Positions 2,443 to 38,901 of a DNA stretch of 41,199 bases are shown here, piece by piece (the stretch's first letter is position 1; the number at the start of each line of letters is the position of its first letter). A program made the translations under genes and the position numbers. Origin of the DNA: Flavobacteriales bacterium (GTDB lineage Bacteria > Bacteroidota > Bacteroidia > UBA10329). The DNA is taken from positions 1 through 41,199 of the forward strand of contig WGMW01000031.1 of assembly GCA_016124845.1 (NCBI GenBank). The letters run 5' to 3'. A model generated the notes under the pieces. The model was not told the origin of the DNA. It saw only the letters and a program-made list of their open reading frames with translations, and did not search any database.

Positions 2443-3471
2443 ATGAAATGGATGTTCCCGCTTCTATTGCTTTGTTGGATATCGACCGTTAGCGGGCAGA
2501 CACCTTCCGACTGCTCCATTCCCACTTGGTTGGAAAACGAATATCATGATGATGTGCGGTTCTTGGCCATGAATCGGATCATCGCAACGAATGCTCCAGC
2601 GATGGACTCCCTCTTTGTTCCACTGGCCTATTTGGACACGGTTTGGGAAGGACTGGCCGCCATTTACAATGTTCAGAACATGCCCGAGCGGGACACGGTT
2701 TTCGACCTGTACTGCATTCATCAATATCTGGGTGGAGAAGCCACGGTCAATCTTTTCACCGTGTCTGTCGATACCACGTACGCATGGACAAATAACTGGC
2801 AGAATCTTACCACTCCGACCGGTGTTCCACAACTTGACAGCATCCTTTCCCTGACACAACTGAGCGTGGTCAATTTTTCGCCCTATTTCAATAACGCAAC
2901 TCTTCTTACCCCTCTCGACCTGAACAGTTCTGGTGTCCATTCCGCATTGCTCAACATCGATGGGATAACCGAAGTGGATGGTTGGGAGATCAATGGTGAT
3001 GGAAACTGGCTGACCTACTCCACCAGTGCTGGAATTCGGCACTATTCGTTTGAACTGGCCTGTGAAGATTGTCCCTCAGGCTGCATGGGTCACAGAATCT
3101 GGAACTTTAGCGTCACACCAACATGTGAAGTTTCGTTTGATGGCATGCAGGATTTTGGAGGCACCAGCTGTATCAATGATCCGGATTTGCAATGTGGATA
3201 TACCGCCATCGGCAACTCAGAGAAGGCTGAATTCCCCATTTATCCCAATCCGACCAACGGTGTTTTTCAGATGCAGCTTTCAGATTGGAACGGTGCGAAG
3301 GATTTGTCGGTGACCGTTTGTGATAAGCTTGGCCGCAGGATGGAAAGCCTCAAACCGCAAACTTCCACTATTGAGATCGATGCAAGTGCGTGGCCGAACG
3401 GTGTGTATTCGGTTTCGCTGATCAACCAAAGTGGCGCACAGCATACAGAACGGCTGGTGATGCAGCATTAA
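2443..3471 (+). CDS. Secreted protein with T9SS type A sorting domain (first of array)
   Basis: The protein has 342 residues if it starts at ATG 2443, which puts a compact signal peptide (MKWMFPLLLLCWISTVSGQ) at the N-terminus. GTG 2419 and ATG 2425 are in-frame alternatives. The mature region is Cys-rich (CEDCPSGCMGHRIW) and I recognise no domain in it. The last 75 or so residues are a type A sorting domain: IYPNPTNGVFQMQLSDW, then LSVTVCDKLGRRM, then WPNGVYSVSLINQSG and ERLVMQH. That domain is nearly identical to the ones in the four genes downstream, although the cargo is unrelated to theirs. The next gene starts 11 bases after the stop, so this is probably the first cistron of an operon. 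Confidence 0.75.
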   Translation: MKWMFPLLLLCWISTVSGQTPSDCSIPTWLENEYHDDVRFLAMNRIIATNAPAMDSLFVPLAYLDTVWEGLAAIYNVQNMPERDTVFDLYCIHQYLGGEATVNLFTVSVDTTYAWTNNWQNLTTPTGVPQLDSILSLTQLSVVNFSPYFNNATLLTPLDLNSSGVHSALLNIDGITEVDGWEINGDGNWLTYSTSAGIRHYSFELACEDCPSGCMGHRIWNFSVTPTCEVSFDGMQDFGGTSCINDPDLQCGYTAIGNSEKAEFPIYPNPTNGVFQMQLSDWNGAKDLSVTVCDKLGRRMESLKPQTSTIEIDASAWPNGVYSVSLINQSGAQHTERLVMQH

Positions 3472-3593
3472 CTTCCAAACTCATGAAAAAGACATTTACG
3501 CTTCTCTCTTTGCTCATGGTACTGACCGCATCAGATTTGTTGGCTCAGAATTACCAGCCCATCAACAGCCACTCGTTGCAGGTGTTTTATCAG
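3231..3593 (+). repeat. Array junction repeat, copy 1
   Basis: A block of about 360 bases covers the sorting domain of one gene, the spacer CTTCCAAACTC, and the signal peptide plus first mature residues of the next gene. Nearly the same DNA recurs at each gene junction of the array. Copy 1 begins at the FPIYPNP codons of the first gene. Confidence 0.7.
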
Positions 3594-5057
3594 GAAAACT
3601 CGTTTCCACTAAATTCCTTTAGCGGTGGCAACATGTGGGGGACGAAAATCGACTCGGTGGCGGTAACCACCCAAGGAGACAGCCTCTACTACAATTACAG
3701 GATCTATCGTGACACCTCAGCTTCGGGTTCTGGTTGCATTTGGTGGAATGCGCCCAACTGGAACGGCATCCAAACTAAAGTTGACACATTGGGATCTTCG
3801 TGGTTCTACAACCAATCTCAGGACAGCATCCGTATTTATCACCAAGGGCAGCTGAATGAAGAATGGCTTGCCTACACCTTTGATAACGGTGATTCGTTAC
3901 TGGCAAAGATCATATCAGTTGAGTGGATCGATGATGGATGGGTTGAAGACTCTGTAAAGACAATCCGGTTCAGTCGCGTTTCTAATGGTATTGAGGTTTC
4001 GGACCCATTGAATAATGCCAACTTGCAGGTTTATCAGAACCATGGTTTCAGAAAGACTATGGACTTTTTGAAATTTCCATTTGAGACTGATTCCATCATG
4101 CGCGTTGACCTGAATTCGATCAACGCCAATTCTCCCGGATATAAATCTGACAATGTTGTCGTTCCGTTCCCAAGTGTTGGTGATGGCTACCTTCAAACAA
4201 CCAATTGGCATACCGGATCTTGTTATGTAAATACCGATGTTTCTATCCTTGTAAATGATGTGCAACCCGATGGGAACAATGGTGACCTTCTGGTTTCAAT
4301 CATCAAGAATCAAGAACAAACGGGTCTCGGACACATTACCCCCGGCTGGGATATAATATCCTGCGATCCATCAGTCACATTCAACTCAAGCCACAACTAC
4401 AACCAATCATTAATTCTTCACTATCAGAAATTACCAGACACCATTAAACCTCTGATTCAAGACTCTGACGGGTTGCATTGCATGCCAAGAGAAAATGGAG
4501 CCGCTTACCTCTATTCCGTTGAATCAAATTGTGGTAATCCGACCATACGAACCGGAGGTGACTTAATAGACCCTGCTTACTATTATTATGACAGCATATC
4601 AGATCCGTGTCTGAATTTCTACCCTCCGGAATGTGAAAGCACGCCAGAAATGATATTCTCGCCATATCTGGGCTATATCGGTTCGTTTTCATACTCTGTT
4701 GATAGTTACTGTACAGCTGCTCTGTTTACTCACACCGATTACAGTTATTTGAAAGTCGGAGATTTTGTCTGCGGAGAATACGCCATGGTTGGCATCGAAG
4801 AAAACCAACGACCCAAATTTTCCATCTACCCCAATCCTACCAACGGTGTTTTTCAGATGCAGCTTTCAGATTGGACTGCCGCAAAGAATCTCTCTGTGAC
4901 CGTTTACGATATGCTTGGCCGCACGGTGGAAAGCCTCAAACCACAAACTTCCACTATTGAGATCGATGCAAGTGCGTGGCCCAATGGGGTTTATTCGATT
5001 TCGCTGGTCAACCAAAGTGGCGCACGGCATACAGAACGGCTGGTGATGCAGCATTAA
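3483..5057 (+). CDS. T9SS-secreted array paralogue 1
   Basis: The 524-residue protein has a signal peptide MKKTFTLLSLLMVLTASDLLAQ, and mature NYQPINSHSLQVFYQ is shared by all four array paralogues. The middle carries family landmarks: NMWGTKIDSVAV, CIWWNAPNWNG, EEWLAYTFDNGDSL, DDGWVEDSVKTI, HGFRKTMDFLKFPFET, VDLNSINANSPGY and CMPRENGAAYLYS. The C-terminus is VGIEENQRPKFSIYPNP plus a full type A sorting domain ending ERLVMQH. It is presumably exported by Sec, moved across the outer membrane by T9SS and then surface-anchored or released. The ATG is chosen because it gives the signal peptide; the frame is open further upstream only because it runs antiphase through the previous gene. I know no function for the central family. 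Confidence 0.8.
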   Translation: MKKTFTLLSLLMVLTASDLLAQNYQPINSHSLQVFYQENSFPLNSFSGGNMWGTKIDSVAVTTQGDSLYYNYRIYRDTSASGSGCIWWNAPNWNGIQTKVDTLGSSWFYNQSQDSIRIYHQGQLNEEWLAYTFDNGDSLLAKIISVEWIDDGWVEDSVKTIRFSRVSNGIEVSDPLNNANLQVYQNHGFRKTMDFLKFPFETDSIMRVDLNSINANSPGYKSDNVVVPFPSVGDGYLQTTNWHTGSCYVNTDVSILVNDVQPDGNNGDLLVSIIKNQEQTGLGHITPGWDIISCDPSVTFNSSHNYNQSLILHYQKLPDTIKPLIQDSDGLHCMPRENGAAYLYSVESNCGNPTIRTGGDLIDPAYYYYDSISDPCLNFYPPECESTPEMIFSPYLGYIGSFSYSVDSYCTAALFTHTDYSYLKVGDFVCGEYAMVGIEENQRPKFSIYPNPTNGVFQMQLSDWTAAKNLSVTVYDMLGRTVESLKPQTSTIEIDASAWPNGVYSISLVNQSGARHTERLVMQH

Positions 5058-5177
5058 CTTCCAAACTCATGAAAAAGACATTTACGCTTCTCTCTTTCCT
5101 CATGGTACTGAGCACATCAGATTCATCCGCTCAGAACTACCAGCCCATCAACAGCCACTCCTTGCAGGTGTTTTATC
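4746..5177 (+). repeat. Array junction repeat, copy 2
   Basis: Same block as copy 1, extended upstream to include YLKVGDFVCGEYAMVGIEENQ. Its first 119 bases (4746-4864) are identical to 7824-7942 in copy 4. Confidence 0.75.
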
Positions 5178-6532
5178 AAGAGACACCTTATTTCACTCCC
5201 TATAGCGGGCAGACTGATGCAAACATGTGGGGTACACGGATTGACTCCATAAGTGTCACCGCGAACAATGATACCATCTATTTCAATTATCCCATTGCTC
5301 GTGATACAGCTGCCGAGAATGGTCAATTCGGCAGTATATGGTGGGACGCCCCCAATTGGAGCGGAAAACAAACGAGAATCGAACCATCTGGTTCAACATG
5401 GTTTTACACTCACAATGACGATAGCGTAAAAATTGAGCCTTTGCTTTCTCTCAATCAGGAATGGTTGGCTTATACCTACCTCAACGGAGACTCTTTAGTA
5501 GGTAAAATAACAAATGTTACTTGGGAAGATGATGGATGGATAACCGACTCCGTAAAGACCATAACGTTTTCAAGATATTCAAGCGGGAACCTTATTTGGG
5601 AGGGTATGCCGATTGAACTTTACAAAGAAAACGGGTTTCGAAAAATGGTGGATTTTGTAAAGTTTCCCAATGATACTATTCCAATACATCGAGTTGACCG
5701 GAATACCATCAATCAATACTCTCCAGGTTATTTGGTAAACGGAACTATTCGCCCAGAACCAACAATAGGAGATGGATTTTACACTATCTCAAGCTGCCAG
5801 TCTTACGGTGTCTCATGCTACGGCAGTAACGGTTCATCGTCAGAATCGGTTTTGGGAGTAACCACTGATAGCATCAGCGGTCAAATCACAGCGAGTGTGA
5901 TGAGGAACACTTTATACAATTCAACCTTCCAATCATCAACCATTGACCTGATTTATGAACTCTTGCCTGACACTTTCGTACCCATATACAATGCCCAGTT
6001 CAACGAGGATTTGATGCCGAGAGAAGGAGGCTCCGCTTATTCCTTTAGTTGGTCTCATCTTGTAAATACGGATGATAGTTGCACTTACCCCTTGGTCACC
6101 ATACACTCCCTACCTGCAGAATGTACAGGAGTAGAATACCATTTTGCTCCATACATCGGAATTGTTTACAAATTCTGGAGCGAAGATGATTATTACTGTA
6201 CTGGGTGGGCGTACCATTACTTTTACTACTCTTATCTGAAAGTTGGCGACTTAGAATGTGGCGAGCAACTTGTGGTCGGAACTGAAGAAAACCAACGACC
6301 CGAATTCTCCATCTACCCGAATCCGACCAACGGTGTTTTTCAGATGCAGCTTTCAGATTGGAATGCCGCCAAGGATTTTTCTGTGACCGTTTATGATATG
6401 CTTGGCCGCAGGATGGAAAACCTCAACCCGCAAACTTCCACTATTGAGATCGATGCAAGCGCGTGGCCCAATGGGGTTTATTCGATTTCGCTGGTCAACC
6501 AAAGTGGGCACAACATACAGAACGGCTGGTGA
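5069..6532 (+). CDS. T9SS-secreted array paralogue 2, frameshifted at its C-terminus
   Basis: This is the second paralogue, 487 residues as read. It has the same signal peptide (MKKTFTLLSFLMVLSTSDSSAQ) and landmarks: NMWGTRIDSISV, SIWWDAPNWSG, NQEWLAYTYLNGDSL, DDGWITDSVKTI, NGFRKMVDFVKFPND, VDRNTINQYSPGY and LMPREGGSAYSFS. The sorting domain is intact up to YSISLVNQSG. After that one base is missing near 6508 compared with the sister genes (AGTGGGCAC here, AGTGGCGCAC there). The reading frame therefore ends HNIQNGW instead of the family ERLVMQH; the lost tail is still legible in the other frame up to 6543. The final strand of the sorting signal is absent, so secretion may fail. A sequencing error cannot be excluded. 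Confidence 0.72.
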   Translation: MKKTFTLLSFLMVLSTSDSSAQNYQPINSHSLQVFYQETPYFTPYSGQTDANMWGTRIDSISVTANNDTIYFNYPIARDTAAENGQFGSIWWDAPNWSGKQTRIEPSGSTWFYTHNDDSVKIEPLLSLNQEWLAYTYLNGDSLVGKITNVTWEDDGWITDSVKTITFSRYSSGNLIWEGMPIELYKENGFRKMVDFVKFPNDTIPIHRVDRNTINQYSPGYLVNGTIRPEPTIGDGFYTISSCQSYGVSCYGSNGSSSESVLGVTTDSISGQITASVMRNTLYNSTFQSSTIDLIYELLPDTFVPIYNAQFNEDLMPREGGSAYSFSWSHLVNTDDSCTYPLVTIHSLPAECTGVEYHFAPYIGIVYKFWSEDDYYCTGWAYHYFYYSYLKVGDLECGEQLVVGTEENQRPEFSIYPNPTNGVFQMQLSDWNAAKDFSVTVYDMLGRRMENLNPQTSTIEIDASAWPNGVYSISLVNQSGHNIQNGW

Positions 6533-6664
6533 TGCAGCATTAACTTCCAAACTCATGAAAAAGACATTTACGCTTCTCTCTTTGCTCATGGTACTGAGCA
6601 CATCGGATTCATCCGCACAGAACTACCAGCCCATCAACAGCCACTCGTTGCAGGTGTTTTATCA
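6232..6664 (+). repeat. Array junction repeat, copy 3 (with single-base deletion)
   Basis: Same block as the other copies. It contains the one-base loss near 6508 that shifts the end of the upstream gene's sorting domain. Confidence 0.7.
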
Positions 6665-8135
6665 GGAAAACAACTTTGCACAAGGCGAAGACTATAACAT
6701 GTGGGGAACCCGAATTGATTCGGTTTCTACATCATCGAATGGCGATACCATCTATTACAATTACCCCATTGTCAGAGACACCATAGTAGAATACGAGCTG
6801 TATGATGGTTCCTGCGCCTGGTGGAATGCACCGAACTGGAACGGTTACGAAACCCGAATAGACACGAATGGAAATGCTTATTTCCGCAATTCGTTCGGTG
6901 ACAGTCTCCTTATAAGGTTCAGCGAACAACTTTCGGGTTCATGGGAAGCTTATCGCTTTGCTAACGGTGATAGCCTTGTAGCTACGATTACGGATATAAC
7001 TTGGGTAGATGATGCTTGGATTTCAGACTCGGTGAAAACAATTGAATTCATCCGCTACTCTACAAACGGAATCGTCACAGATCCAATGAATCATGTAACC
7101 TTGGAGATATATCGGTCGCATGGCTTCCGAAGAATGATTGATTTCGTAAGATTCCCTGTACATGACGAACCCATCTATCAGGTAGACCCCAATTCTATCA
7201 ATGTCAACTCCGTTCCTTACAGAGTTGGAAACGAATATCGGGCAACCCCACATGTTGGCGATGGATATTTTGAATACTCTCGTTTAGACTATGTGTCATC
7301 GCCAGCATATCATGGTTCAAGCACTTCCCGATTAATCACGGATGTTTCGACCAACGGGCAAGGTCAAGTGGTAGTGTATTGGCAAGAAAACTCTCAGTCA
7401 TATAGTTTCGATCAGGTTCCAAGCAACATATCTCCGTACGGATACACGTATGAACTTCATACTTCCGATGTTCAGATTGTCACATATTCCGAGATCTATA
7501 CTTCAAACCCTGACAGCTCCTTCAAAACCCTGATGCGTAACTACGATGACATCAACATGATGCCTCGAGAAAAATGGACCGGGTATGTTTATAATCTGTC
7601 AGAGAGCGAAGAATGTCCGAATACAGTAACGACCTCGAATTGTTGGGGGCCGATTGGCTGGGAGCCTGATAATGGTGATTCTTGCCTGTGGGCACCCATA
7701 TTTTTCAAATGCAATGGTGGAAACAACCAAACATTTATGGCTTATGTTGGCGATTACGGAAGCTCAAGTTGGCAAACGGATTGGGGAGCATCAACCCAAT
7801 ACTCAGCTTACACAGGCTATAGCTATTTGAAAGTCGGAGATTTTGTCTGCGGAGAATACGCCATGGTTGGCATCGAAGAAAACCAACGACCCAAATTTTC
7901 CATCTACCCCAATCCTACCAACGGTGTTTTTCAGATGCAGCTCTCAGATTGGAACGGTGCGAAGGATTTTTCTGTGACCGTTTACGATATGCTTGGCCGC
8001 ATGGTGGAAAACCTCAACCCACAAACTTCCACTATTGAGATCGATGCAAGTGCGTGGCCCAATGGGTTTTATTCGGTTTCGCTGATCAACGAACGTAGCG
8101 CACAGTATTCAGAACGGCTGGTGGTGCAGCATTAA
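6555..8135 (+). CDS. T9SS-secreted array paralogue 3
   Basis: The 526-residue protein starts at the ATG 11 bases after the restored end of the previous unit, giving signal peptide MKKTFTLLSLLMVLSTSDSSAQ. Landmarks in order are YNMWGTRIDSVST, CAWWNAPNWNGYETRID, SGSWEAYRFANGDSL, DDAWISDSVKTI, HGFRRMIDFVRFPVHD, VDPNSINVNSVPY and MMPREKWTGYVYN. Four Cys fall in the ECPNTVTTSNCW...CLW...CNGG stretch, which differs from the sister proteins. The C-terminal part is VGIEENQRPKFSIYPNP followed by a type A sorting domain ending ERLVVQH. A 119-base tract in its 3' part is identical to the same part of the 3483-5057 gene. Function unknown; cell-surface or released. Confidence 0.8.
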   Translation: MKKTFTLLSLLMVLSTSDSSAQNYQPINSHSLQVFYQENNFAQGEDYNMWGTRIDSVSTSSNGDTIYYNYPIVRDTIVEYELYDGSCAWWNAPNWNGYETRIDTNGNAYFRNSFGDSLLIRFSEQLSGSWEAYRFANGDSLVATITDITWVDDAWISDSVKTIEFIRYSTNGIVTDPMNHVTLEIYRSHGFRRMIDFVRFPVHDEPIYQVDPNSINVNSVPYRVGNEYRATPHVGDGYFEYSRLDYVSSPAYHGSSTSRLITDVSTNGQGQVVVYWQENSQSYSFDQVPSNISPYGYTYELHTSDVQIVTYSEIYTSNPDSSFKTLMRNYDDINMMPREKWTGYVYNLSESEECPNTVTTSNCWGPIGWEPDNGDSCLWAPIFFKCNGGNNQTFMAYVGDYGSSSWQTDWGASTQYSAYTGYSYLKVGDFVCGEYAMVGIEENQRPKFSIYPNPTNGVFQMQLSDWNGAKDFSVTVYDMLGRMVENLNPQTSTIEIDASAWPNGFYSVSLINERSAQYSERLVVQH

Positions 8136-8257
8136 CTTCCAAACTCATGAAAAAGACATTTACGCTTCTCCCTTTACTCATGGTACTGAGCACATCAGAT
8201 TCATCCGCTCAGAACTACCAGCCCATCAACAGCCACTCGTTGCAGGTGTTTTATCAG
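7824..8257 (+). repeat. Array junction repeat, copy 4
   Basis: Same block. The tract 7824-7942 is identical to 4746-4864, whereas the central coding regions of the two genes have diverged strongly. Confidence 0.75.
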
Positions 8258-9742
8258 AGAAGTGCCTACAACTGGATGGCCAGTGCAAACATGTGGGGAA
8301 CTCGGATTGATTCCATTTCAGTATCGGGTCAGGACACACTCTATTACAATTATCCCATTGTCCGCGACACATCATTAGAAAACCCACTACCAGAATACTC
8401 ATGCGTTTATTGGAATGCACCTAATTGGAATGGAGCCGTAACAGGAATACTGCAAAGTGGACAAGCGTGGTTTTCGAATGAATTGGGAGACAGCGTGAAA
8501 ATTGACCATAGCCTACTTCCAAATCAAAATTGGTTGGCATACCAATATCCAAACGGAGACTCATTGATCGGGACGGTGGAATCGATTCAGATCATTGAGG
8601 ATGATTGGGTAACGGATTCTGTGAAGACAATTTCTTTCAAGCATATATCTCTCGGAGAAATAGTACCTGACCCGATAAATTTCATCACCATAGAATTATT
8701 CAAGGACCACGGTTTCAGAAAAATGGTTGATTTCTTGAAATTCCCATTCGACACAAATGCAATTCGCCAAGTTGACCCAAATTCGATAAACGTTTATGCC
8801 CCCGGATACATAGTTGGGAATGGTACAATACGAGGAGTCCCACATGAGGGCGATGGGTTCTTCAAAATTTGGAGGTACGACCACAACCCTCCTGGCAACA
8901 ATTGCTACCATGTGGAAACAACGAAAACCTCCGAGTTGATCACATCTGTGAGCACTCCAGACCAAAATGGTTCTATCCAAGTTGAATGCATCACAAATCA
9001 CCAAAGTCTGAACTCCATGACAACGGATTACGGCAATGATTGTGGTCCACCATTAATCGAAACAGCCTCTTCGGTAACTTCCAATCAGATAACCCGAACC
9101 TACACTCCGGTGACGGGGAATTATGAAACGCTCATTCAATTCGAAAACAGGAATCTGATGCCTCGCGAAAAGAATGCCGCCTACTCCTATTCGCCCTCCA
9201 ACCCAGACAACATTTGTCAATTTGCTTTTGTAGATATCTGCTCCTGCAATCCAATAGTCAATTGGGATTCCAATAATGTGGAAGACAGTTGTTTTGTTGT
9301 GGAACATCCGTACCACTTTCCGTACTTACGAAACCAAACCTTTGTTCCGAAATATGGTTGGTGGAGCGATGAAGAAAACTGGTATTATGAAATGCTTGGC
9401 GATGGTCCAAACAAATCAACCCACTATACATATTTGAAATTCGATGAGTGCGTCTTCGGAGAATACGCCATGGTAGGCATCGAAGAAAACCAACGCCCCG
9501 AATTCTCCATCTACCCCAATCCGACCAACGGTGTTTTTCAGATGCAGCTTTCAAATTGGAACGGTGCGAAGGATTTGTCGGTGACCGTTTACGATATGCT
9601 TGGCCGCACGGTGGAAAACCTCAACCCACAAACTTCCACTATTGAGATCGATGCAAGTGCGTGGCCGAACGGAGTGTATTCGGTTTCGCTGGTCAACGAA
9701 CGTGGCGTACGGCATACAGAACGGCTGGTGGTGCAGCATTAA
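8147..9742 (+). CDS. T9SS-secreted array paralogue 4 (last of array)
   Basis: The 531-residue protein has signal peptide MKKTFTLLPLLMVLSTSDSSAQ. Landmarks are NMWGTRIDSISV, CVYWNAPNWNGA, NQNWLAYQYPNGDSL, DDWVTDSVKTISF, HGFRKMVDFLKFPFDT, VDPNSINVYAPGY and LMPREKNAAYSYS. The region between about residues 240 and 420 is the most divergent part and has its own Cys pattern. The C-terminus is VGIEENQRPEFSIYPNP and a complete sorting domain ending ERLVVQH. It starts 11 bases after the preceding stop and is followed by a strong hairpin terminator at 9748-9779, so it closes the operon. The central family is not one I can name. Confidence 0.8.
   Translation: MKKTFTLLPLLMVLSTSDSSAQNYQPINSHSLQVFYQRSAYNWMASANMWGTRIDSISVSGQDTLYYNYPIVRDTSLENPLPEYSCVYWNAPNWNGAVTGILQSGQAWFSNELGDSVKIDHSLLPNQNWLAYQYPNGDSLIGTVESIQIIEDDWVTDSVKTISFKHISLGEIVPDPINFITIELFKDHGFRKMVDFLKFPFDTNAIRQVDPNSINVYAPGYIVGNGTIRGVPHEGDGFFKIWRYDHNPPGNNCYHVETTKTSELITSVSTPDQNGSIQVECITNHQSLNSMTTDYGNDCGPPLIETASSVTSNQITRTYTPVTGNYETLIQFENRNLMPREKNAAYSYSPSNPDNICQFAFVDICSCNPIVNWDSNNVEDSCFVVEHPYHFPYLRNQTFVPKYGWWSDEENWYYEMLGDGPNKSTHYTYLKFDECVFGEYAMVGIEENQRPEFSIYPNPTNGVFQMQLSNWNGAKDLSVTVYDMLGRTVENLNPQTSTIEIDASAWPNGVYSVSLVNERGVRHTERLVVQH
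9431..9742 (+). repeat. Array junction repeat, terminal half copy
   Basis: This is the sorting-domain half of the junction block at the end of the last array gene. The signal-peptide half is missing because no further paralogue follows; a terminator comes instead. Confidence 0.7.
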
Positions 9743-9747
9743 AAGTA

Positions 9748-9779
9748 AAAGGCCCCTCACATTGCTGCGAGGGGCCTTT
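9748..9779. terminator. Bidirectional terminator between the T9SS array and cspA
   Basis: AAAGGCCCCTC at 9748-9758 pairs with GAGGGGCCTTT at 9769-9779 around a 10-base loop. A/T-rich flanks suit both directions, so it can end the plus-strand array and the minus-strand cold-shock gene. Confidence 0.85.
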
Positions 9780-9803
9780 CATTTCATAGATATGTCGGAT
9801 GGA

Positions 9804-9995: not shown

Positions 9996-10069
9996 TAATA
10001 TATAGTTATGTGAAGCCGCAATGTACGCTTAATTAGATCGGAAATACGCTTGTGCACGATTTAGGTGAT

Positions 10070-10077
10070 TATATTCG
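10070..10077 (+). promoter_or_regulatory. Possible -7 element of the HsdR-N-like gene
   Basis: TATATTCG at 10070-10077 differs by one base from TAnnTTTG. It lies four bases before the preferred ATG at 10082, so the transcript would be nearly leaderless. No clear -33 element is visible. Confidence 0.3.
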
Positions 10078-10081
10078 ACCA

Positions 10082-10531
10082 ATGCTGCCCAAACTGAATC
10101 TACCGATGCATGCCCAACGCCTGAAACAGGAGAACGGCAAGCATTTCGTTTTCTGTCAGGTGCGGAAGAAGTTTCTGGTGCTGACGCCCGAAGAATGGGT
10201 AAGGCAACATTTAATCGCCTTCTTGAACAAAGATCTTGGCTACCCACTTTCGTTGATGAAGATTGAGCGCGAAGTGAAAGGCGGTCACCGCACCAAGCGG
10301 GCCGACCTGATCATCTGCAACCCGCAGGGAAAACCGCAACTGCTGGTGGAATGCAAAGCTCCGACCGAAACACTTGGGAAGGAAACTTTCTTTCAGTTGG
10401 GCAGGTACAATCGGCATATTGATGCTGCGCTGCTGCTGATAAGCAACGGATTGGAACACTACTGCTGCCACGTGACCGATGAAAATGAGTTCCAGTTTTT
10501 GGATGAGATTCCGAAATACGCGCAAGGCTGA
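10082..10531 (+). CDS. Stand-alone HsdR N-terminal-type nuclease-fold protein
   Basis: The 149-residue protein matches the 'type I restriction enzyme R protein N-terminal domain' family (HSDR_N_2) common as a single-domain protein in Bacteroidetes. MLPKLNLP at the start and LTPEEWVRQHLI are family hallmarks. A PD-(D/E)XK-like core is visible as RADLIICNPQGKPQLLVECKAP-type spacing: D in RADLII, then E and K in VECKAP. The helicase and specificity parts of a type I system are absent, so it is probably not a restriction enzyme; its cellular role is unknown. ATG 10082 is preferred because it gives the family start; a GTG at 10052 is in frame upstream. It is divergent from cspA. Confidence 0.7.
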   Translation: MLPKLNLPMHAQRLKQENGKHFVFCQVRKKFLVLTPEEWVRQHLIAFLNKDLGYPLSLMKIEREVKGGHRTKRADLIICNPQGKPQLLVECKAPTETLGKETFFQLGRYNRHIDAALLLISNGLEHYCCHVTDENEFQFLDEIPKYAQG

Positions 10532-10676: not shown

Positions 10677-12281
10677 ATGAAACACATTTCCATTTTTCTA
10701 CTGCTCCTTCTTCCCTTTTCTCTTTTCGCACAGGAAAATGTGGTTCCTGACCTCATCATTGCAAAGGTGAAGGACACTGATGCCAGCACGTTCTCTGCTG
10801 AACTGAAAGAACACGCATCACTTGCAGGATTGCCCATCACGGAGGTGATACGGAAATATCCGCATGCGGAAAAACCAAGACCGCAACAGACAGATAATGC
10901 AGGAAATGCGTTCATCGACCTGACGAGGACCTACCGCATTGAACTGGAAGAAGGTTCGGATCTTACCGCCATCATTAAAAAACTGGAAGAAACGGGTGTT
11001 TTCGAATGGGTGGAACCGACCACGTATTCGCAATCGTTCTACATGCCGAACGACCCGCAAATAGGTTCGTTCGACCATCTGCTGCACGCCAATCTTTATG
11101 CCGCTTGGGACACGACCCAAGGTGATACGAACGTGGTGATGGGAATAACGGACACGAGTTTCGATCTGCTGCACGAAGACCTTCAGGGCAACCTGAAATA
11201 CAACTACGCTGATCCGATAAACGGAACAGATGACGACAATGACGGCTACATCGACAACTACAAGGGTTGGGATATTTGGGGCAACGACAATGGCGTTTTC
11301 TCCACCAACGATTGGCACGGAACGGGTGTTTTGGCAGTGGCCGCTGCCACCACCGATAATGGTGTGGGCATGTCGGGCGCGGGTTTCAAGTGCAAATACC
11401 TGCCCGTGAAAATTGCCAATGATGCCACCAACGGTAATACAACCATTGTTACGGCAGATGGCCACGATGCCATCACTTATTGCGCTGACCGCGATTGCAA
11501 GGTGATCAACTGCTCGTGGGGAACGCTGACCTACAGCAATGACGGGCAGGACGTGGTGAACTACGCCACTATTAATAAGGATGCGGTAGTGGTGGCCGCT
11601 TCAGGAAACACAAATGCAGAAGAGTTCCGTTATCCTGCTTCGTTCTACCGTGCTGTGAGCGTTACAGGCGTTCACAATTCTGATGAATTTGACAACGGAG
11701 TGAATGCCCCTTTCACGCGCAGCGATAGTGTGGATGTGTGTGCACAAGGATTTGATGTGATGGCCACGGCAACGGTCGGAGCTTCGGGGAGCACGGAAGT
11801 TTATCAGACTACGGGCGGAACGTCCATTGCCTCACCGATCGTTACAGGTGTGGTTGCCATGATCCGTTCGGCCTATCCGTGCCTTACTGCGTTAGAAACC
11901 ATGGACCTTTTGATCAGCACTGCGGTGGATATTGAAAGCGTTGGAACCAATTCTACCTACGCGGGAAAGATCGGGAAGCGGGTTGATGCGTATGCGGCCC
12001 TTCAGAACAATCCATGCCTGACGGTTGGCATTGAAGAGAATCAGTCACCGAAAGCAAGTGTTACGGTCTATCCGAATCCATCCAAAGGTGACGTGACATT
12101 TAAACTGAGTGAACCGGGTTCTTGGAATCTGCGAATAATGGATGCAAGCGGAAGAGTCGTTATCCGCCAAAAAGTGACCAGCAATTCGGTGATGCTTTCG
12201 GGCTTCCGACCAGGCATTTACGTTGCAGAATTCAGGAATAAAGATGCCGCGATCACCGAGAAATTCACGATTGTCAAGTAG
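10677..12281 (+). CDS. Subtilisin-like serine protease (S8) with T9SS sorting domain
   Basis: The 534-residue exported protease has signal peptide MKHISIFLLLLLPFSLFAQ. A propeptide-like region of about 100 residues ends near EETGVFEWVEP. The S8 domain has its catalytic triad visible: D159 (GITDTSFD), H214 (DWHGTGVLAV) and S383 (GGTSIASPIV), with the oxyanion Asn N311 (AASGNTN). An Asp-rich DDDNDGYIDN loop near residue 185 probably binds calcium. The C-terminal 80 or so residues are a type A T9SS sorting domain (VYPNPSKGDVTF, then IMDASGRVV, FRPGIYVAEF and ITEKFTIVK). The linker VGIEENQ matches the linker of the array proteins upstream. It probably acts on extracellular protein. It is monocistronic, with a terminator after it at 12329-12362. 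Confidence 0.88.
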   Translation: MKHISIFLLLLLPFSLFAQENVVPDLIIAKVKDTDASTFSAELKEHASLAGLPITEVIRKYPHAEKPRPQQTDNAGNAFIDLTRTYRIELEEGSDLTAIIKKLEETGVFEWVEPTTYSQSFYMPNDPQIGSFDHLLHANLYAAWDTTQGDTNVVMGITDTSFDLLHEDLQGNLKYNYADPINGTDDDNDGYIDNYKGWDIWGNDNGVFSTNDWHGTGVLAVAAATTDNGVGMSGAGFKCKYLPVKIANDATNGNTTIVTADGHDAITYCADRDCKVINCSWGTLTYSNDGQDVVNYATINKDAVVVAASGNTNAEEFRYPASFYRAVSVTGVHNSDEFDNGVNAPFTRSDSVDVCAQGFDVMATATVGASGSTEVYQTTGGTSIASPIVTGVVAMIRSAYPCLTALETMDLLISTAVDIESVGTNSTYAGKIGKRVDAYAALQNNPCLTVGIEENQSPKASVTVYPNPSKGDVTFKLSEPGSWNLRIMDASGRVVIRQKVTSNSVMLSGFRPGIYVAEFRNKDAAITEKFTIVK

Positions 12282-22383: not shown

Positions 22384-23823
22384 TTATTCGTTTATCTCTA
22401 TGGCCTGCAGATAACCTTCCGTAATACCATTATATGTTGGAGAGTCGCTTACATAGAACTGTAGTGTATACGTATGGGAACCTGCACTTGGGGTAACATC
22501 CATACCCGTGATGGCGAAGTTCCATGTATTCTGACCACCCGAAATATAGTAGCCATCAGCGATCGAACCCGTAATGTGCGTAGCTCCATCTCTTAGAATT
22601 CTGTAACCACAATAATCCGCATAGATCACCGCACCACCCGAAGCCGCTACGTAGATGTCATTTCCGTGCGAATTTATAGTCACACTTGCGGCATTGAGCC
22701 AAGAACCACTTGAAGTGGGGTAGAATGTGTAATTGTAAAGACCCTGAGCAGCCTGATCGATCGGGCCTGCTGGACCCTGTGGACCTTGCGGTCCTTGAGG
22801 CCCCTGTGCTCCCTGTGCACCTGCTGGGCCTTGTGCACCTTGAGGACCTGCTGGTCCCTGTGGGCCCGCTGGTCCTTGCGCTCCTGCCACACCCGCAGGT
22901 CCCTGTGGGCCAGCAGGACCTTGTGGTCCAGGCAATCCTTGTGGGCCCTGCGGGCCATCAGCACCTTGAGGCCCGATTGGACCTGCAGCACCAGTAACTC
23001 CTTGAGGACCTTGAATTCCCTGTGGGCCCTGCGCTCCTGTTGCACCAGCTGCCCCAGTTGGACCCTGAGCTCCTTGAGGACCTGCAGGACCCTGAATGCC
23101 TTGAGGTCCCTGCGCTCCTGTTGCACCATCAGCACCTGCTGGGCCTTGTGGGCCCTGAGGACCGGTTGCGCCATCAGCACCTGCTGGACCTTGAGGTCCC
23201 TGCGCTCCTGTTGCACCGTCAGCACCCGCAGGCCCTTGTAATCCCTGAGGACCGGTCGCACCATCAGCACCCGCTGGGCCTTGAGGTCCCTGTGGACCAG
23301 TTGCACCGTCAGCACCCGTTGGCCCTTGCGGTCCCTGTGGGCCGGTCGCACCATCAGCACCCGCTGGCCCTTGTGGACCCTGTGGGCCGGTCGCGCCATC
23401 AGCACCCGCTGCGCCCTGTGTTCCTTGTGGGCCAGTTGCACCATCAGCCCCTGCCGGACCCTGTGGTCCCTGTACTCCTGGGGCACCATCAGCACCTGCC
23501 GGGCCTTGAGGGCCAGCTGGTCCAGCCGGTCCCTGAAGCCCTTGCGGCCCCTGTGGTCCAACCGCCTGAACCCATTGTGTTCCATCAAAATACCAGAACT
23601 GGTTATCATCAGTATCAAATACCAACAATCCGGTTGCAGGCTGAAATATCAGCGTACGCTGCTGAGTGGTCAATCTTGGCACCAGAAACCCTTTGTCTGA
23701 GGCACTGAGATCCAAAACCGCACTGGCATGTGGTGTTGATGTCCCAACCCCCATGTTGTCCTGCGCCTTAACAGCAACAGCATTGACACACAATAAAATC
23801 ACGAGAGGAAAAAGTCTTTTCAT
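22384..23823 (-). CDS. Collagen-like secreted protein
   Basis: The 479-residue protein has signal peptide [20 protein letters not shown]. Residues 24-85 are a module ([48 protein letters not shown]) also found in the protein at 37286-38758. About residues 89-354 are uninterrupted Gly-X-Y triplets (about 88) rich in [16 protein letters not shown], expected to form a collagen triple helix. The 125-residue C-terminal domain (from [15 protein letters not shown] to the end) is probably a beta-sandwich head that could trimerise the stalk. There is no T9SS sorting domain. ATG 23823 is chosen for the signal peptide. The gene has a strong promoter at 23887-23918 and heads a three-gene operon. Confidence 0.85.
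22762..23559 (-). repeat. Collagen-coding triplet region with about nine 45-bp tandem units
   Basis: The DNA for the Gly-X-Y region is built of 9-bp elements. Between about 23118 and 23505 it consists of about nine 45-bp units encoding [15 protein letters not shown]-like 15-mers. The units differ by a few bases each, so they could expand or contract by slippage or recombination. Because of the composition no stop codon occurs over long stretches in several frames on both strands. Confidence 0.8.
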
Positions 23824-23886
23824 TCCAAATATTCTTCGTTTAACTATTAGCTCAGAAGGACGAATCAATCATTTCCTTCGATGAAA

Positions 23887-25297: not shown

Positions 25298-25333
25298 CTT
25301 TAGGGCGAGTCTAATTCCTCTCACTTTTTATTG

Positions 25334-27451
25334 ATGAAACATTTGATTGCCTGTCTTGCACTTGTTGCAGGGCTTAATTTCTCTGTGTCTGCCGATGGTA
25401 GCGGATACGACTATTCCATTACAGTAAATCCTGAAAATGTGACCATTGTCCGCGACAAGTGGGGCGTTCCGCACATTTACGGGAAAACCGATGCCGATGT
25501 GGCCTACGGACTGGCTTGGGCCAATGCCGAAGACGATTTCTACACCATGCAGGAGTTGGTCATTACTGGTAAAGGACTTGCAGGAAAAATGCTGGGCGTG
25601 GAAGGTGCAGAGCGTGATTTCTTCTCGCACGCGCTTGGCTACCGCGAAGTTGTTGAAAGGGAATTCGATCAGCTGTCTGATGATTACGTCAAGTATCTGG
25701 AAGGCTACTGCCAAGGCATCAATGCCTATGCAAAATCGCACAAGAAGGAAATCCGTGTAAAGGGAACATTCCCCGTAAACCCGAAAGATGTGGTTGGCTC
25801 GTACATGTTCGCGTTGAGCGCGTTGATCGGAACACCAGGCGCGGTGAGCCGAATTATGGATGGAACGTACGATAAGGACACGCCATCGGATCTTCCATAC
25901 GGATCGAACGCCTTTGCCTTCAACAGCAACAAGACACCAGATGGAAGTTCGATGCTCTGCATCAACCCGCACCAGCCCGTCACGGGGCCATTTTCATGGT
26001 ACGAGGCGCACTTGTGCAGCGAAGAAGGGCTGAACATTCACGGAGCGATGTTCCCAGGAAGCAACACGGTTTTCCTTGGAAATAATGAGCATTTGGGTTG
26101 GGCGCACACGTTCAATCACCTCGATCTTGTAGATGTTTTTCAACTTGAAATGCATCCCAAGAAAAAGCACGTGTACCGTTTTAATGGCGAGTGGTATAAA
26201 CTGGAAAAGCGACCAGTTTGGCTGAAAGTGAAATTGGCCAAAGGCATCGTTTTTCCTGTGAGAAGAATGACCTACTGGAGCAAGTTAGGTTCCACGTTGG
26301 AGTCGCCTGACGGAAATTTCTACGCGATAAAATTGCCTGGGAATGAGAAGGTTCGTGTAGGCGAGCAATGGTACCGCATGGACAAAGCATCTAATTTCTC
26401 TGAATTTTATGACGCGCTTCGCATGGAATCCATCTCCATGTTCAATGTGATCTATGCCGATGAGAATGACACCATCATGTACCTGAACAATGCGGTAGTT
26501 CCAAGACGACACGAAGGTGTGGATTACTCAAAGGTTGTGAAAAGCAATTCGGACAAGACGCTTTGGACGGATTTCCATGATGTGGAAGACCTGGTGCAGA
26601 CAAAAAACCCGCAATGCGGCTGGGTTTTCAATACGAACAACAATCCCGCACACGCCACATGTAGAGGTGAATGGCAAGACATCAACGATTGGCCAAGCTA
26701 TTTCGGATTTGGAAGTGACCTTGGCGAGAACAACCGTGCCGAACGTTTCTTGGAGTTGATGGATGAGCCTGCATCCGATAAGGTCTCTTTTGAGCGGATG
26801 AAGGCCATGAAATTCGATTACGAATTTCCGAGCACAAGTGCATTCCAAGAATCTCTACAAAACGTATTTGATATAAGTGGAGACGATTTCCCAGAATTGA
26901 AGCCGCTGATGACAGCCATCCAGAATTGGGACAAAAAGGCCAGCAAAGACAGTCGCGGAGCTGCTGCTTGGGTCATCACGTTCCAAAAGGTTTTCAGCAT
27001 GCTTGGCTTTGGAGATGGCGAGTTCAAACATGAGGTGAACGTTCCAGACACTACATATATTAAGGCGTTGCGGTGGGCAAAGAATCAGATTGACACTTAC
27101 TACGGAGGTAAGATTCCCAAATTGGGCGAGGTTCAGCGCCACGTTCGTGGAGATGTGAACCTTCCGCTGAGCGGTTTCCCCGATGCGTTGGCTGCCAACT
27201 ACAATGAAGAATGGAAAGATGGCCGCTACAAGCCTTGGGTTGCCGACTCGTATGTTCATTTTGTAAAATGGAAAGACGGCAAAGTGGAGCGCATGGAAAC
27301 GCTTCATCCGTTCGGAGCAAGTGGTCGTCCCGATTCGCCACACTACACGGATCAGATGCCACTCTACTCCAACCAACAGACCAAGGTGATGACCTTGAAC
27401 CGCGAGAAGATCTTTGCAGAGGCGGAAAAGATCTATCATCCGCAACCATGA
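25334..27451 (+). CDS. Penicillin-acylase-family (Ntn) hydrolase, copy 1
   Basis: The 705-residue exported enzyme has signal peptide MMKHLIACLALVAGLNFSVSA. It belongs to the penicillin amidase/acyl-homoserine-lactone acylase family, whose members autocleave into alpha and beta chains and hydrolyse amides. The alpha part has IVRDKWGVPHIYGKTDADVAYGLAW-type features. The beta chain would start at the nucleophile S191 in YGSNAFAFNSNKT. Later conserved motifs are INPHQPVTGPFSWYEAHL, NNEHLGWAHTFNHLDLVDVF, VIYADENDTIMYLNN and the C-terminal HPFGASGRPDSPHYTDQMPL. Substrate cannot be predicted: AHLs, N-acyl amino acids or beta-lactams are all possible. ATG 25334 is preferred. It lies 93 bases before its paralogue. 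Confidence 0.88.
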   Translation: MKHLIACLALVAGLNFSVSADGSGYDYSITVNPENVTIVRDKWGVPHIYGKTDADVAYGLAWANAEDDFYTMQELVITGKGLAGKMLGVEGAERDFFSHALGYREVVEREFDQLSDDYVKYLEGYCQGINAYAKSHKKEIRVKGTFPVNPKDVVGSYMFALSALIGTPGAVSRIMDGTYDKDTPSDLPYGSNAFAFNSNKTPDGSSMLCINPHQPVTGPFSWYEAHLCSEEGLNIHGAMFPGSNTVFLGNNEHLGWAHTFNHLDLVDVFQLEMHPKKKHVYRFNGEWYKLEKRPVWLKVKLAKGIVFPVRRMTYWSKLGSTLESPDGNFYAIKLPGNEKVRVGEQWYRMDKASNFSEFYDALRMESISMFNVIYADENDTIMYLNNAVVPRRHEGVDYSKVVKSNSDKTLWTDFHDVEDLVQTKNPQCGWVFNTNNNPAHATCRGEWQDINDWPSYFGFGSDLGENNRAERFLELMDEPASDKVSFERMKAMKFDYEFPSTSAFQESLQNVFDISGDDFPELKPLMTAIQNWDKKASKDSRGAAAWVITFQKVFSMLGFGDGEFKHEVNVPDTTYIKALRWAKNQIDTYYGGKIPKLGEVQRHVRGDVNLPLSGFPDALAANYNEEWKDGRYKPWVADSYVHFVKWKDGKVERMETLHPFGASGRPDSPHYTDQMPLYSNQQTKVMTLNREKIFAEAEKIYHPQP

Positions 27452-27544: not shown

Positions 27545-29665
27545 ATGCCCCGAAAACTCCTTTTGCTTGTTGCCACAATTGCTGCAACCTCTGTACTGTT
27601 TGCTGCTAAACCGAAGCCAAATCCGAACCAAACAAACAGTACTGGTTCCCAATTTGAAAAGGTCGATGTGACCAAGATTCAGATAGTACGCGACCAATGG
27701 GGCGTTCCGCACATTTTTGCCGATCAGGATCACGAAGTGGCCTACGGATTGGCTTGGGCAAATGCCGAAGATGATTTCGAGACCATGCAACAAATGCTCA
27801 TTGCTGGTCAGGGAAAATCTGGCCAGTTGATGGGAAAAGATGGTGCCAAACGCGACTTTCTTTTGGAGACTTTCGACATCCAACAAATAGTGGATGCGAA
27901 GTTCGATTCAGTTTTTTCGGACGAGTACAAACAATACTTGGACGGTTACGCGCAAGGGCTGAATGCCTACGCTGCCGCCTATCCTGATGAAATACTGTTG
28001 CACGGCATTTTCCCCGTTTCGGGGAAAGACCTTGTATATGGAAATGTGTTCGCAGCATGCATCGTTTCGGGCGCGCACAAGGAAGTTGCCAGCATCATTA
28101 AAGGAGATTATGATGGCGGGCGCACATGGCTTGGCTCCAACGCCATGGCATTCAATGCAAACAAAACGGCTGATGGCAGCACCATTCTGGTCATCAATCC
28201 GCATCAACCCATGGAAGGTCCATTCTCGTGGTATGAGGCACATCTGTGCAGCAACGAAGGGTTGAACATCATTGGCGGACTTTTCCCAGGCGGGCCATCC
28301 GTTTTTCTTGGAACCAATGAAAATCTCGGTTGGGCGCACACCGTCAATAAACTCGACCTCGTTGATGTGTACAAGCTGCGCATGAGCGATGACAAAAGGC
28401 GGATGTACCGATTGGATGGCGAATGGTACGAACTGGACAGGCGGCTAACATTCCTAAAGGTGAAATTGAGCAATATTCTCACCGTCCCTATTCCAAAAAT
28501 GATGTATTGGAGCAAGTATGGTGCAACGGTAAAATCGAAGGATGGTGGTTTCTATGCGGTGCGATTGGCGGCCAATCAGCGAATCAATACCATTGAGGAG
28601 ATCTACCGCATGAACAAGGCCAAGAACTTCGATGAGTTCTATGAGGCGTTGAGCATGGAAGCGCATCCACGCTACAACGTGATCTATGCTGACCGCGAAG
28701 GCAATATCATGTACCTCAACAATGGGCTGATCCCGAAAAGGAATGAAGATTACAACTGGTCAGGCGTACTGCCTGGGGATACTTCTGCCACGCTTTGGAC
28801 AGAGTTTCATTCAATTCAGGAGCGACCGCAGGTCATTAATCCGAACTGCGGGTATGTTTTCAATACAAACAATACTCCGTTCAATGCAACGTGCGAAAGC
28901 GAGAACCTGAACCCGATGGACTACCCTGCCTATTTTGGTTTTGAAACGGGCGACAATAACCGCAGCACGCGCCTCATGCAATTGTTGGAGGAGTACGACC
29001 GCGTGACCTTGGAAGACGCCAAACGCATGAAATTCGACTGTCAATTGCCTGATTCAAGCACGTTCTTCTGCTCAATAGATAACTTCATGCAATTGGATCC
29101 GAACTGTTTCCCAGATGTGACGGAGAGCATTGTGAAAATGCAGAACTGGGACAGACGCGCAGACAAGGACAGCGAGGCGGCAGGAATGTACCTGCTGACC
29201 TACGACTATATTTTCAACAAACTCGGTCTGGGAACGGAAGCCTTCATTGAAGGAATGGATGTGGAGGACAACCTGTTCATTGAAGCGGTGACATACGCCC
29301 GTGATCACCTACTGGAGTATTTCAAAACCTTGGATGTGACCTTGGGAGAACTTCAAGTACACGTTCGTGGAGATAAGGAATATGGCGTCAGCGGCTTTGC
29401 AGATGCCTTGGCCGCCAACTACAACATGCCTTACACCAACGGCCGTTTCAAAACGTTTGTGGCCGATTCATACGTTCAGTTTGCGCAATGGAAAGATGGC
29501 AAGCAGAGTATCGAATCATTGCATCCGTATGGTGCCAGCAACCGCGAATGGTCCAAACATTACAACGACCAAATGGAACTCTACGTGAACCAGCAGACCA
29601 AGAAAATGACGCTGAACCGCGAGGAGATCTTTGCCAACGCAGAGAAGATCTATCATCCGAAGTGA
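27545..29665 (+). CDS. Penicillin-acylase-family (Ntn) hydrolase, copy 2
   Basis: The 706-residue paralogue of the preceding gene has signal peptide MPRKLLLLVATIAATSVLFA. The landmarks are the same: IVRDQWGVPHIFADQDHEVA, nucleophile S198 in LGSNAMAFNANKT, INPHQPMEGPFSWYEAHL, TNENLGWAHTVNKLDLVDVY, VIYADREGNIMYLNNG and HPYGASNREWSKHYNDQMEL. The two proteins share a common frame throughout, yet differ enough to suggest an old duplication and possibly different substrates. A terminator follows at 29688-29710. The 93-base gap holds no clear -7 element, so the pair is probably cotranscribed. It acts in the periplasm or outside the cell. Confidence 0.88.
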   Translation: MPRKLLLLVATIAATSVLFAAKPKPNPNQTNSTGSQFEKVDVTKIQIVRDQWGVPHIFADQDHEVAYGLAWANAEDDFETMQQMLIAGQGKSGQLMGKDGAKRDFLLETFDIQQIVDAKFDSVFSDEYKQYLDGYAQGLNAYAAAYPDEILLHGIFPVSGKDLVYGNVFAACIVSGAHKEVASIIKGDYDGGRTWLGSNAMAFNANKTADGSTILVINPHQPMEGPFSWYEAHLCSNEGLNIIGGLFPGGPSVFLGTNENLGWAHTVNKLDLVDVYKLRMSDDKRRMYRLDGEWYELDRRLTFLKVKLSNILTVPIPKMMYWSKYGATVKSKDGGFYAVRLAANQRINTIEEIYRMNKAKNFDEFYEALSMEAHPRYNVIYADREGNIMYLNNGLIPKRNEDYNWSGVLPGDTSATLWTEFHSIQERPQVINPNCGYVFNTNNTPFNATCESENLNPMDYPAYFGFETGDNNRSTRLMQLLEEYDRVTLEDAKRMKFDCQLPDSSTFFCSIDNFMQLDPNCFPDVTESIVKMQNWDRRADKDSEAAGMYLLTYDYIFNKLGLGTEAFIEGMDVEDNLFIEAVTYARDHLLEYFKTLDVTLGELQVHVRGDKEYGVSGFADALAANYNMPYTNGRFKTFVADSYVQFAQWKDGKQSIESLHPYGASNREWSKHYNDQMELYVNQQTKKMTLNREEIFANAEKIYHPK

Positions 29666-37285: not shown

Positions 37286-38758
37286 TCAGTTAGTTGCCTG
37301 AATAGACATGGCGCGGTTTCCAACCGTTATGCCTGAACCACCTGGAATCTTCTTACAACGAACCTCAATCGTTCCAGAAGACGACAGGGTCACCTTACCC
37401 ATCAATTGATATTGTGAAGTTCCGCTGGAAGAAAGCTGAAATGTTCGCTCCGTATCCGAATCGTCACTATTACCAGCCCTGACAATGCACTTGCATGATG
37501 AGCTGCCGTTCCTATCGATGTCTGCGTTAAAGTTGACCAAGTAAGTTCCAGCTGAAACGCTTGAGATGGACATTCCCGAAACCGAGGTGTAGCTTGAAGA
37601 ATTGATATTCTGACTTGAACTTGACTCGACCGTTGTTGGAGATGAACCCGATGAAGGCAACGCTTGTGTAGAAATATCGCCATTCGCATCGGCCACAACC
37701 ATCCGTGTTCCGCTTCCTGCAAGGTTCGAAATGCGAGCTCCTCCATTCACATGCAATTTCGCGCTTGGCGAATTGGTACCGATACCGATGTTGCCTGACG
37801 AGCCGCTGATGAAGATGCTGTTCTCCGAGCTGTTGCGCGTTAGCACAAAATCGTGGTTGTAACTGTTCATGTATGCCCGGTTGGTAAAAATGCCGGTGGT
37901 GCCGGAGTTGGCGAATCCGAAGGTTGCGCCCAGCGAACCGGAATTATTAAGGAAGTCAATGCTGCTCCAACCACTGGTTGTGGTGTTTCTCACAGAAATA
38001 ACATTCAAACCAGAAGCACTGGTAACCACATCCAATGCCTTTGAAGGCGAAGTAGTACCGATACCGACCTTTCCGTCATGGGTAATGGTCATACGCTCTA
38101 TGGCAGCACTACTGTATAAGGTTCCATTGGGCTTGGTAAGAAAACTCAGGTTTCCGCCTTTGTTGCTGTTTCCCTGATTCTCAGAAGCTGTACCACGAAT
38201 AACTGCACTTCCTCCATTTGTAGAAGGAGAAGTATCGTCCGTACTGTCAAAGATGATCTGACCCAACAGATCTCCGTTCTGGGTAGAAGCATCCTCTCGC
38301 GTCAGCAGAACCTCCGCGCCTGATGCTGCCCCCACGTTCAGTAATCGGTCCGGGGTTGATGTTCCTATTCCCACATTACCATTGTCAAGTATGCGAATGC
38401 CCTCACTTCCTCCATCATTGGTAAGCCAATGGTCGTTCAGTTGGATATTTGCTGTTGCTATGTGATCGCCAAAGTTGTCTGCCGCTCCACCGAACTCCGT
38501 CCAAGCAGAACCGTTGTAGTACTTGAATCCTTTTGTTCCGTTGGTCTGATAGACGATCAGTCCTTCCGTTGGACCAACGATGGCATTCATCTGTGCCTGC
38601 GTCATCTTAGGAAGCAGGAATCCTGAAGTGGTGGAACGCAGTTCCAGCAAGGCATCATCATTCGGAGTGAAACTGGTGGCTCCGATACCGACATTCTGCG
38701 AAAAGCCGACAGATGCCAACCCCAGTGCAATAACGGTAAATACAAGTTTTTTCATCAT
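37286..38758 (-). CDS. Secreted fibre-like protein with 'VGIGT-SP' repeats
   Basis: The 490-residue protein has signal peptide MMKKLVFTVIALGLASVGFS (38758, or ATG 38755). It starts with the module NVGIGATSFTPNDDALLELRS, GFLLPKMTQAQMNAI and GLIVYQTNGTKGFKYYNGSAW, related to the N-terminus of the collagen-like protein. Fibre-like repeats follow, each led by GNVGIGTSTPDRLLNV, GKVGIGTTSPSKALDV or GNIGIGTNSPSAKLHV. This pattern resembles phage tail-fibre and bacterial surface proteins with beta-helical stalks. The C-terminal 110 residues are Ser-rich (TTVESSSSQNINSSS), then a beta domain ending AMSIQATN. No T9SS sorting motif is visible. Function is unknown; adhesion or attachment is plausible. 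It is monocistronic, with a terminator. Confidence 0.75.
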   Translation of the reverse strand: MMKKLVFTVIALGLASVGFSQNVGIGATSFTPNDDALLELRSTTSGFLLPKMTQAQMNAIVGPTEGLIVYQTNGTKGFKYYNGSAWTEFGGAADNFGDHIATANIQLNDHWLTNDGGSEGIRILDNGNVGIGTSTPDRLLNVGAASGAEVLLTREDASTQNGDLLGQIIFDSTDDTSPSTNGGSAVIRGTASENQGNSNKGGNLSFLTKPNGTLYSSAAIERMTITHDGKVGIGTTSPSKALDVVTSASGLNVISVRNTTTSGWSSIDFLNNSGSLGATFGFANSGTTGIFTNRAYMNSYNHDFVLTRNSSENSIFISGSSGNIGIGTNSPSAKLHVNGGARISNLAGSGTRMVVADANGDISTQALPSSGSSPTTVESSSSQNINSSSYTSVSGMSISSVSAGTYLVNFNADIDRNGSSSCKCIVRAGNSDDSDTERTFQLSSSGTSQYQLMGKVTLSSSGTIEVRCKKIPGGSGITVGNRAMSIQATN

Positions 38759-38901
38759 CTTGAGTTTCTGGTCTCGGCTCGGTTTAACGCCATTTGAAAG
38801 CATCTGGTTATTATTTTGTGAAGTTTATCGATAAGCGACACCCGTGTTTTGGACAAGATGATGGTTAGCTTCGACCAATTGAAAGTTCATTCGGATAAAA
38901 C

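Follow-up and report, generated by a model that had tools for sequence, protein, structure and literature searches.

Signs of recombination between neighbouring gene junctions in a five-gene array of type IX secretion cargo with near-identical ends and old, divergent middles

Why should neighbouring genes for secreted proteins share almost the same DNA at their ends while their central parts have diverged strongly? The question is raised by five consecutive genes, g0 to g4, for predicted cargo of the type IX secretion system (T9SS) in a Flavobacteriales bacterium (GenBank assembly GCA_016124845.1, contig WGMW01000031.1). The window analysed here is this whole contig (41,199 nucleotides, C31 in our numbering), which belongs to a Bacteroidota genome of 4.36 Mb in 65 contigs with a completeness of 98.9%. 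An original prediction, made from the sequence alone, had described an array with fixed ends and divergent middles and had read it as a diversifying family of surface proteins. The description was borne out and the reading only in part: the main source of the fixed-end, variable-middle contrast is that the ends were homogenised recently, whereas the middles to which they are attached are old. We consider it probable that homologous recombination between neighbouring junction blocks homogenises the ends of the operon, with the cargo evolving independently. The ends share their DNA, the middles are saturated with silent changes, and the likeness of the ends depends on neighbourhood and strand.

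The T9SS type A sorting domain scores above its curated thresholds in all five gene products (PF18962, 41.9–52.0 bits against 27; TIGR04183, 34–48 against 23), and g1 to g4 have in common the N-terminus MKKTFTLL... and NYQPINSHSLQVFYQ. This hydrophobic N-terminus, which ends in AQ, was taken by eye as a putative signal peptide; because its invariant Gln22 fits the Bacteroidetes Q-rule (PMC5837995), the mature proteins probably begin at Q22 and not at N23. The C-terminal ends read LVMQH or LVVQH, except in g2. Here a single base found in the other copies is missing near position 6508; the frame shifts, different residues take the place of the final ~13 of the sorting domain, and the stop codon (6530–6532) falls 11 bp before the ancestral TAA. 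This frameshift may be real or could be an assembly error; the copies g1, g3 and g4 are intact and retain the two signals. The terminator-like hairpin located 3' of g4, together with the 11-bp spacers between the genes, suggests that g0 to g4 form a single operon. The five products are probably secreted by the T9SS and either displayed at the surface or released.

At each junction, nearly the same DNA runs through the sorting domain, the stop codon, an 11-bp spacer (CTTCCAAACTC), the next signal peptide and the first ~15 mature codons, and complete junctions are 92–97% identical across the stop, the spacer and the first 111 coding bases. The original prediction of an identical spacer holds for its sequence at all four junctions, but not for its function as the interval between genes at g2/g3, where the frameshift extends the true stop-to-ATG distance to 22 bp. 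Strong matches to the ~395-bp block (90–92%) occur only inside the array, and elsewhere in the genome matches are short and weak. Tandem Repeats Finder reported no array, its period limit of 500 bp being shorter than the ~1.6-kb units. The likeness of the ends holds at the DNA level, synonymous and non-coding sites included, and therefore points to a recent common DNA origin beyond mere protein constraint.

The middles give the opposite picture. The centres of the paralogues are 40–45% identical to that of g4, and their cysteine counts are 9, 6, 6 and 9 in g1 to g4. Among the four paralogues, Nei–Gojobori estimates of synonymous divergence (dS) are about 0.1–0.3 at the ends (about 0.09–0.22 for codons 1–37, a rough figure given that it rests on 37 codons, and about 0.11–0.34 for the 72-codon sorting domain), whereas from codon ~38 to codon ~430 synonymous sites are saturated, with the windowed proportion of synonymous differences (pS) mostly at 0.7–0.97; the step is abrupt at both boundaries of the centre. 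The landmarks NMWGTRIDS, WNAPNWNG, DSVKTI and HGFRK are kept as amino acids although their silent sites are saturated, which shows long-term purifying selection. In the phylogeny, g1 to g4 form one clade (support 1.0) with long, near-star branches and hardly any resolved internal order, and are a lineage-specific clade of old paralogues. The scan along the paralogues of the ratio of non-synonymous to synonymous changes (dN/dS), proposed with the original prediction, could be carried out and separates ends from middles in this way; since the synonymous sites of the middles are saturated, it cannot show positive selection there.

These data bear on an arms-race explanation, in which the genes arose by recent tandem duplication and their middles then diversified very quickly under positive selection. 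Divergence, indels and changes of cysteine pattern are indeed strong in the centre and greatest in residues 215–415, and the centre family was not found in eight genomes of the same genus, both of which would suit such a history. However, the middles are old, with silent sites saturated even at the conserved landmarks, by which this explanation is largely refuted, and the same ends occur on unrelated cargo, both in g0 and in a gene pair on contig C33 (see below), which duplication plus divergence cannot give. We therefore regard it as unlikely, and the diversifying family of the original prediction is not supported as stated: its silent sites are saturated, its landmarks are under purifying selection and its ends were recently homogenised.

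Within the array, two features are signs of gene conversion, as far as sequence comparison can reveal it. First, an exact 119-bp tract is common to the non-adjacent genes g1 and g3; it reaches upstream of the sorting domain, into a part in which g2 and g4 differ. For g1/g3, up to 29 shared polymorphic sites follow one another without interruption, against at most 11 for the other pairs; the global permutation p value of 0.0002 is the smallest attainable with 5,000 shuffles and presumes exchangeable sites, an assumption partly broken by the dense polymorphism upstream. Second, the front gene g0, as originally predicted, joins the same sorting domain to a different cargo, and its sorting-domain DNA matches that of g1 to g4; with an unrelated cargo, this sharing cannot be accounted for by whole-gene duplication and divergence. 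Young ends with old and at times unrelated middles, as in g0 and the C33 pair, would also arise if cargoes had been inserted between existing junctions, or if a sorting domain had been copied once per cargo at its birth, with no continuing conversion. The centres of g1 to g4 nevertheless constitute a single homologous clade, and tract boundaries vary by pair, with g1/g3 reaching further, which favours repeated exchange; we give this alternative a small but appreciable chance.

The genome contains at least 150 sorting domains, 105 of which were compared pairwise. Pairs that are not neighbours (n = 5,419) have a mean nucleotide identity of 0.572 (standard deviation 0.031), and two of them exceed 0.70, one being the array's own g0/g4. 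The sole such pair outside the array is G000:C4:98811-99035 with G000:C15:55774-55998 (0.77). Among same-strand neighbours at most 5 kb apart, the threshold is exceeded by 17 of 35 pairs, compared with 0 of 6 for opposite-strand neighbours. Nine of the 17 high pairs belong to the array and eight to six other clusters (a trio on C10, two pairs on C33, and C37, C15 and C29), and the sorting-domain DNA of several same-strand neighbours elsewhere in the genome is 72–99% identical, in some cases on unrelated cargo. The clusters include LamG-like and unrelated cargo: at C33:39749/41542, the cargoes show random-level identity and the sorting-domain regions are 82–93% identical, C33:53663/54790 (830 and 337 aa) has a similar pattern, and the C10 pairs have a sharp boundary at or within the sorting domain. 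The recurrence of the end/middle pattern in other T9SS cargo clusters, partly with unrelated cargo, also counts against the diversifying reading.

The same comparison decides on selection at the DNA or RNA level (for secretion signal, codon use or translation signals) as a force that would keep the ends alike without recombination. The ends do carry the Sec and T9SS signals, and the spacer is identical; such selection, however, predicts alike ends whatever the distance between genes, a prediction that failed when tested. About 100 other sorting domains of the genome vary freely (mean nucleotide identity 57%), only neighbours being alike, and the likeness of g1 and g3 extends upstream of the sorting domain. 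This explanation is accordingly highly improbable.

Other genomes provide replicates. In G291, which belongs to another family and is assembled as one contig, homogenisation affects both ends of three paralogues whose middles are saturated, and another pair matches almost exactly over the last ~300 residues. The two loci with T9SS paralogues of these kinds, near-identical ends with saturated middles or near-identical last ~300 residues, are L169 (G291:C1:3052000-3065000) and L162 (G291:C1:1640700-1649200). In G053, two homologues of the g1 to g4 family lie ~10 bp apart, with the last ~50 sorting-domain codons 97% identical and the rest near 50%; G158 adds one weaker case (identity 0.80). An assembly artefact of collapsed or chimeric repeats would be conceivable given the 65 contigs, the ~395-bp repeats and the g2 frameshift, which could itself be an error. 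Yet the block copies differ by about 8–10% and carry distinct substitutions, and the pattern recurs in the one-contig G291 and in several separate clusters, so that we assign this possibility very little weight.

Besides the limits of the 37-codon estimates and of the permutation test given above, several points weigh against recombination between junction blocks as the explanation. The C15 cluster is homologous over the whole gene, and ordinary duplication contributes there; many neighbour pairs, in all genomes, share nothing unusual; and the ends of a homologue pair in G147 are not homogenised. Some repeat-assembly error is possible in the window, although G291 is one contig. Recombination is, moreover, inferred from sequence.

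Based on these observations, we propose the following mechanism, in which (i) gene conversion, possibly with unequal crossing-over, between neighbouring junction blocks would keep the ends alike; (ii) what is homogenised would be the label by which Sec and the T9SS address the protein, leaving the cargo to change on its own; and (iii) exchange from block to block could add, remove or overwrite an entire cargo, with the reading frame kept and the signals intact, because every block runs from the last part of one gene into the first part of its successor. Neighbour-dependent homogenisation of this kind is seen in further sorting-domain genes, both here and elsewhere in the Bacteroidia. That T9SS cargo clusters are modular cassette arrays whose junction blocks are recurrent recombination sites for the in-frame gain, loss or swap of whole cargoes in Bacteroidia, and that neighbour-dependent homogenisation is general in the phylum, is a tentative extension that we hold to be possible but doubtful. 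The features of the array are listed in Table 1.

Table 1. Positions of the genes, junction blocks and related features of the array in the window.
Feature	Position	Strand	Description
g0	2443–3471	+	342 aa; T9SS type A cargo unrelated to g1–g4; sorting-domain DNA common to g1–g4
g1	3483–5057	+	524-aa paralogue
g2	5069–6532	+	487-aa paralogue; frameshift near 6508 removes sorting-domain end
g3	6555–8135	+	526-aa paralogue
g4	8147–9742	+	531-aa paralogue
Junction block J0	3238–3593	+	g0 sorting domain, stop, spacer, g1 signal peptide and first mature residues
Junction block J1	4824–5179	+	g1 to g2
Junction block J2	6311–6665	+	g2 to g3
Junction block J3	7902–8257	+	g3 to g4
Terminal half block	9509–9742	+	g4 sorting domain, no following signal peptide
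11-bp spacer	3472–3482, 5058–5068, 6544–6554, 8136–8146	+	all four junctions
Divergent centre, g1	3549–4796	+
Divergent centres, other copies	5135–6283, 6621–7874, 8213–9481	+
119-bp tract in g1	4746–4864	+	exact match to g3 7824–7942; reaches upstream of sorting domain
119-bp tract in g3	7824–7942	+	partner of the g1 tract
Terminator-like hairpin	9746–9781	.	between g4 and opposing gene; probable end of g0–g4 operon

What the cargo itself may be was approached through its relatives and a structure model. Outside the sorting domain, g1 to g4 have no match in Pfam, NCBIfam or PDB sequences, protease domains included; this agrees with the original prediction that no described family accounts for the centre, and an enzyme family with a conserved active site, looked for in the same three databases, was not found. 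Within its genome, the centre is confined to the array, and a scan of contigs with the centre profile gave no relatives. At least about 29 of 395 Bacteroidia genomes encode a full-length relative (about 500 aa, ~20% identity), a lower bound with three candidates scored per genome. In the centre, Gly, Asp and a single Cys account for the positions that are nearly invariant across 35 homologues, and no catalytic set is obvious among them. A first structure model from 12 sequences was poor (predicted local distance difference test, pLDDT, 54.6); the AlphaFold model of g1 from 35 sequences (mean pLDDT 75.9, predicted template modelling score 0.62) is almost all beta, and the PDB fold matches to this whole-protein model land on residues 440–524, the sorting domain. 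The cargo, as modelled, is an uncharacterised beta-rich secreted family. As to its role, the likeliest guess is that it binds a ligand or a surface, because it is predicted to be secreted and beta-rich and has neither an enzyme-family match nor an obvious catalytic set; for the adhesin, toxin, bait or recognition roles proposed originally, there is no direct evidence. Beside some homologues (L079, L083, L088 and L075, in G336, G176, G083 and G147, respectively; four genomes, two families), a DUF3108 gene is followed by a Trp_dioxygenase-family gene, a neighbourhood absent beside the array; DUF3108 as a relative of the family was rejected by profile comparison. In G004, of the same genus, a different gene adjoins AMP nucleosidase, and a clean empty site was not found there.

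The nearest precedent is provided by the KLIKK protease clusters of Tannerella forsythia, clustered T9SS cargo with virtually identical sorting domains, a feature that was called unusual and whose origin was left open (PMC4404884). The array resembles them in having near-identical sorting domains on differing cargo within one cluster. It differs in that their cargoes are proteases with unique N-terminal profragments, while no protease domain was found here, no C-terminal KLIKK is present, and signal peptide and spacer are common as well. In Porphyromonas gingivalis, the genes of T9SS surface proteins (gingipains and haemagglutinins) have been proposed to undergo domain rearrangement, allelic exchange and gene conversion (PMC5266723). 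That exchange concerns adhesin modules and strain alleles, whereas in the array sharing is confined to the ends, and whole cargo centres are old. Clustered paralogues of the major ampullate silk genes of Argiope reportedly, to go by the title of a study, both diversify and homogenise; unlike these eukaryotic genes, the array concerns secretion labels within an operon. By domain score, g0 to g4 are members of the T9SS type A cargo (PF18962, TIGR04183), g2 lacking the last residues, and the centre of g1 to g4 belongs to a family without a Pfam or NCBIfam model. Polymorphic toxins, with a variable C-terminal toxin domain and an immunity gene next to it, do not fit, as the variable part is central, the C-terminus is fixed and no gene lies between the cargo genes. 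Nor does silent-cassette antigenic variation of the pilS or vls type, with one expressed locus and incomplete silent copies, g1, g3 and g4 each being complete and having both signals. A search of the open-access literature turned up no account of sorting domains being homogenised between neighbours throughout a genome. The array is a real feature and a new instance of concerted evolution in clustered genes, of which the genome-wide pattern is a new form.

Just downstream of the array and on the same strand lies a subtilase (S8) gene (10677–12281) with its own T9SS sorting domain, which shows no homogenisation with those of the array (about 0.56 identity). The window further contains a stand-alone HSDR_N_2 (type I restriction R N-terminal) protein of 159 aa (10052–10531), a collagen-like triple-helix repeat protein of 494 aa (22384–23868), two tandem penicillin-amidase-family genes of 706 aa each (25331–27451 and 27545–29665) and a 505-aa open reading frame with no Pfam match (37286–38803).

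Our analysis defines an uncharacterised family of secreted proteins of about 500 residues, in a class of bacteria, the Bacteroidia, whose genomes can each encode 150 or more cargo proteins of the T9SS. If neighbouring genes exchange sorting domains, phylogenies and classifications based on the similarity of these domains would partly mirror gene position and not cargo ancestry, and it would become possible to test how near-identical sorting domains arose, for example in the KLIKK proteases. Clusters of cargo genes would then be a candidate route by which these bacteria change their secreted repertoire.
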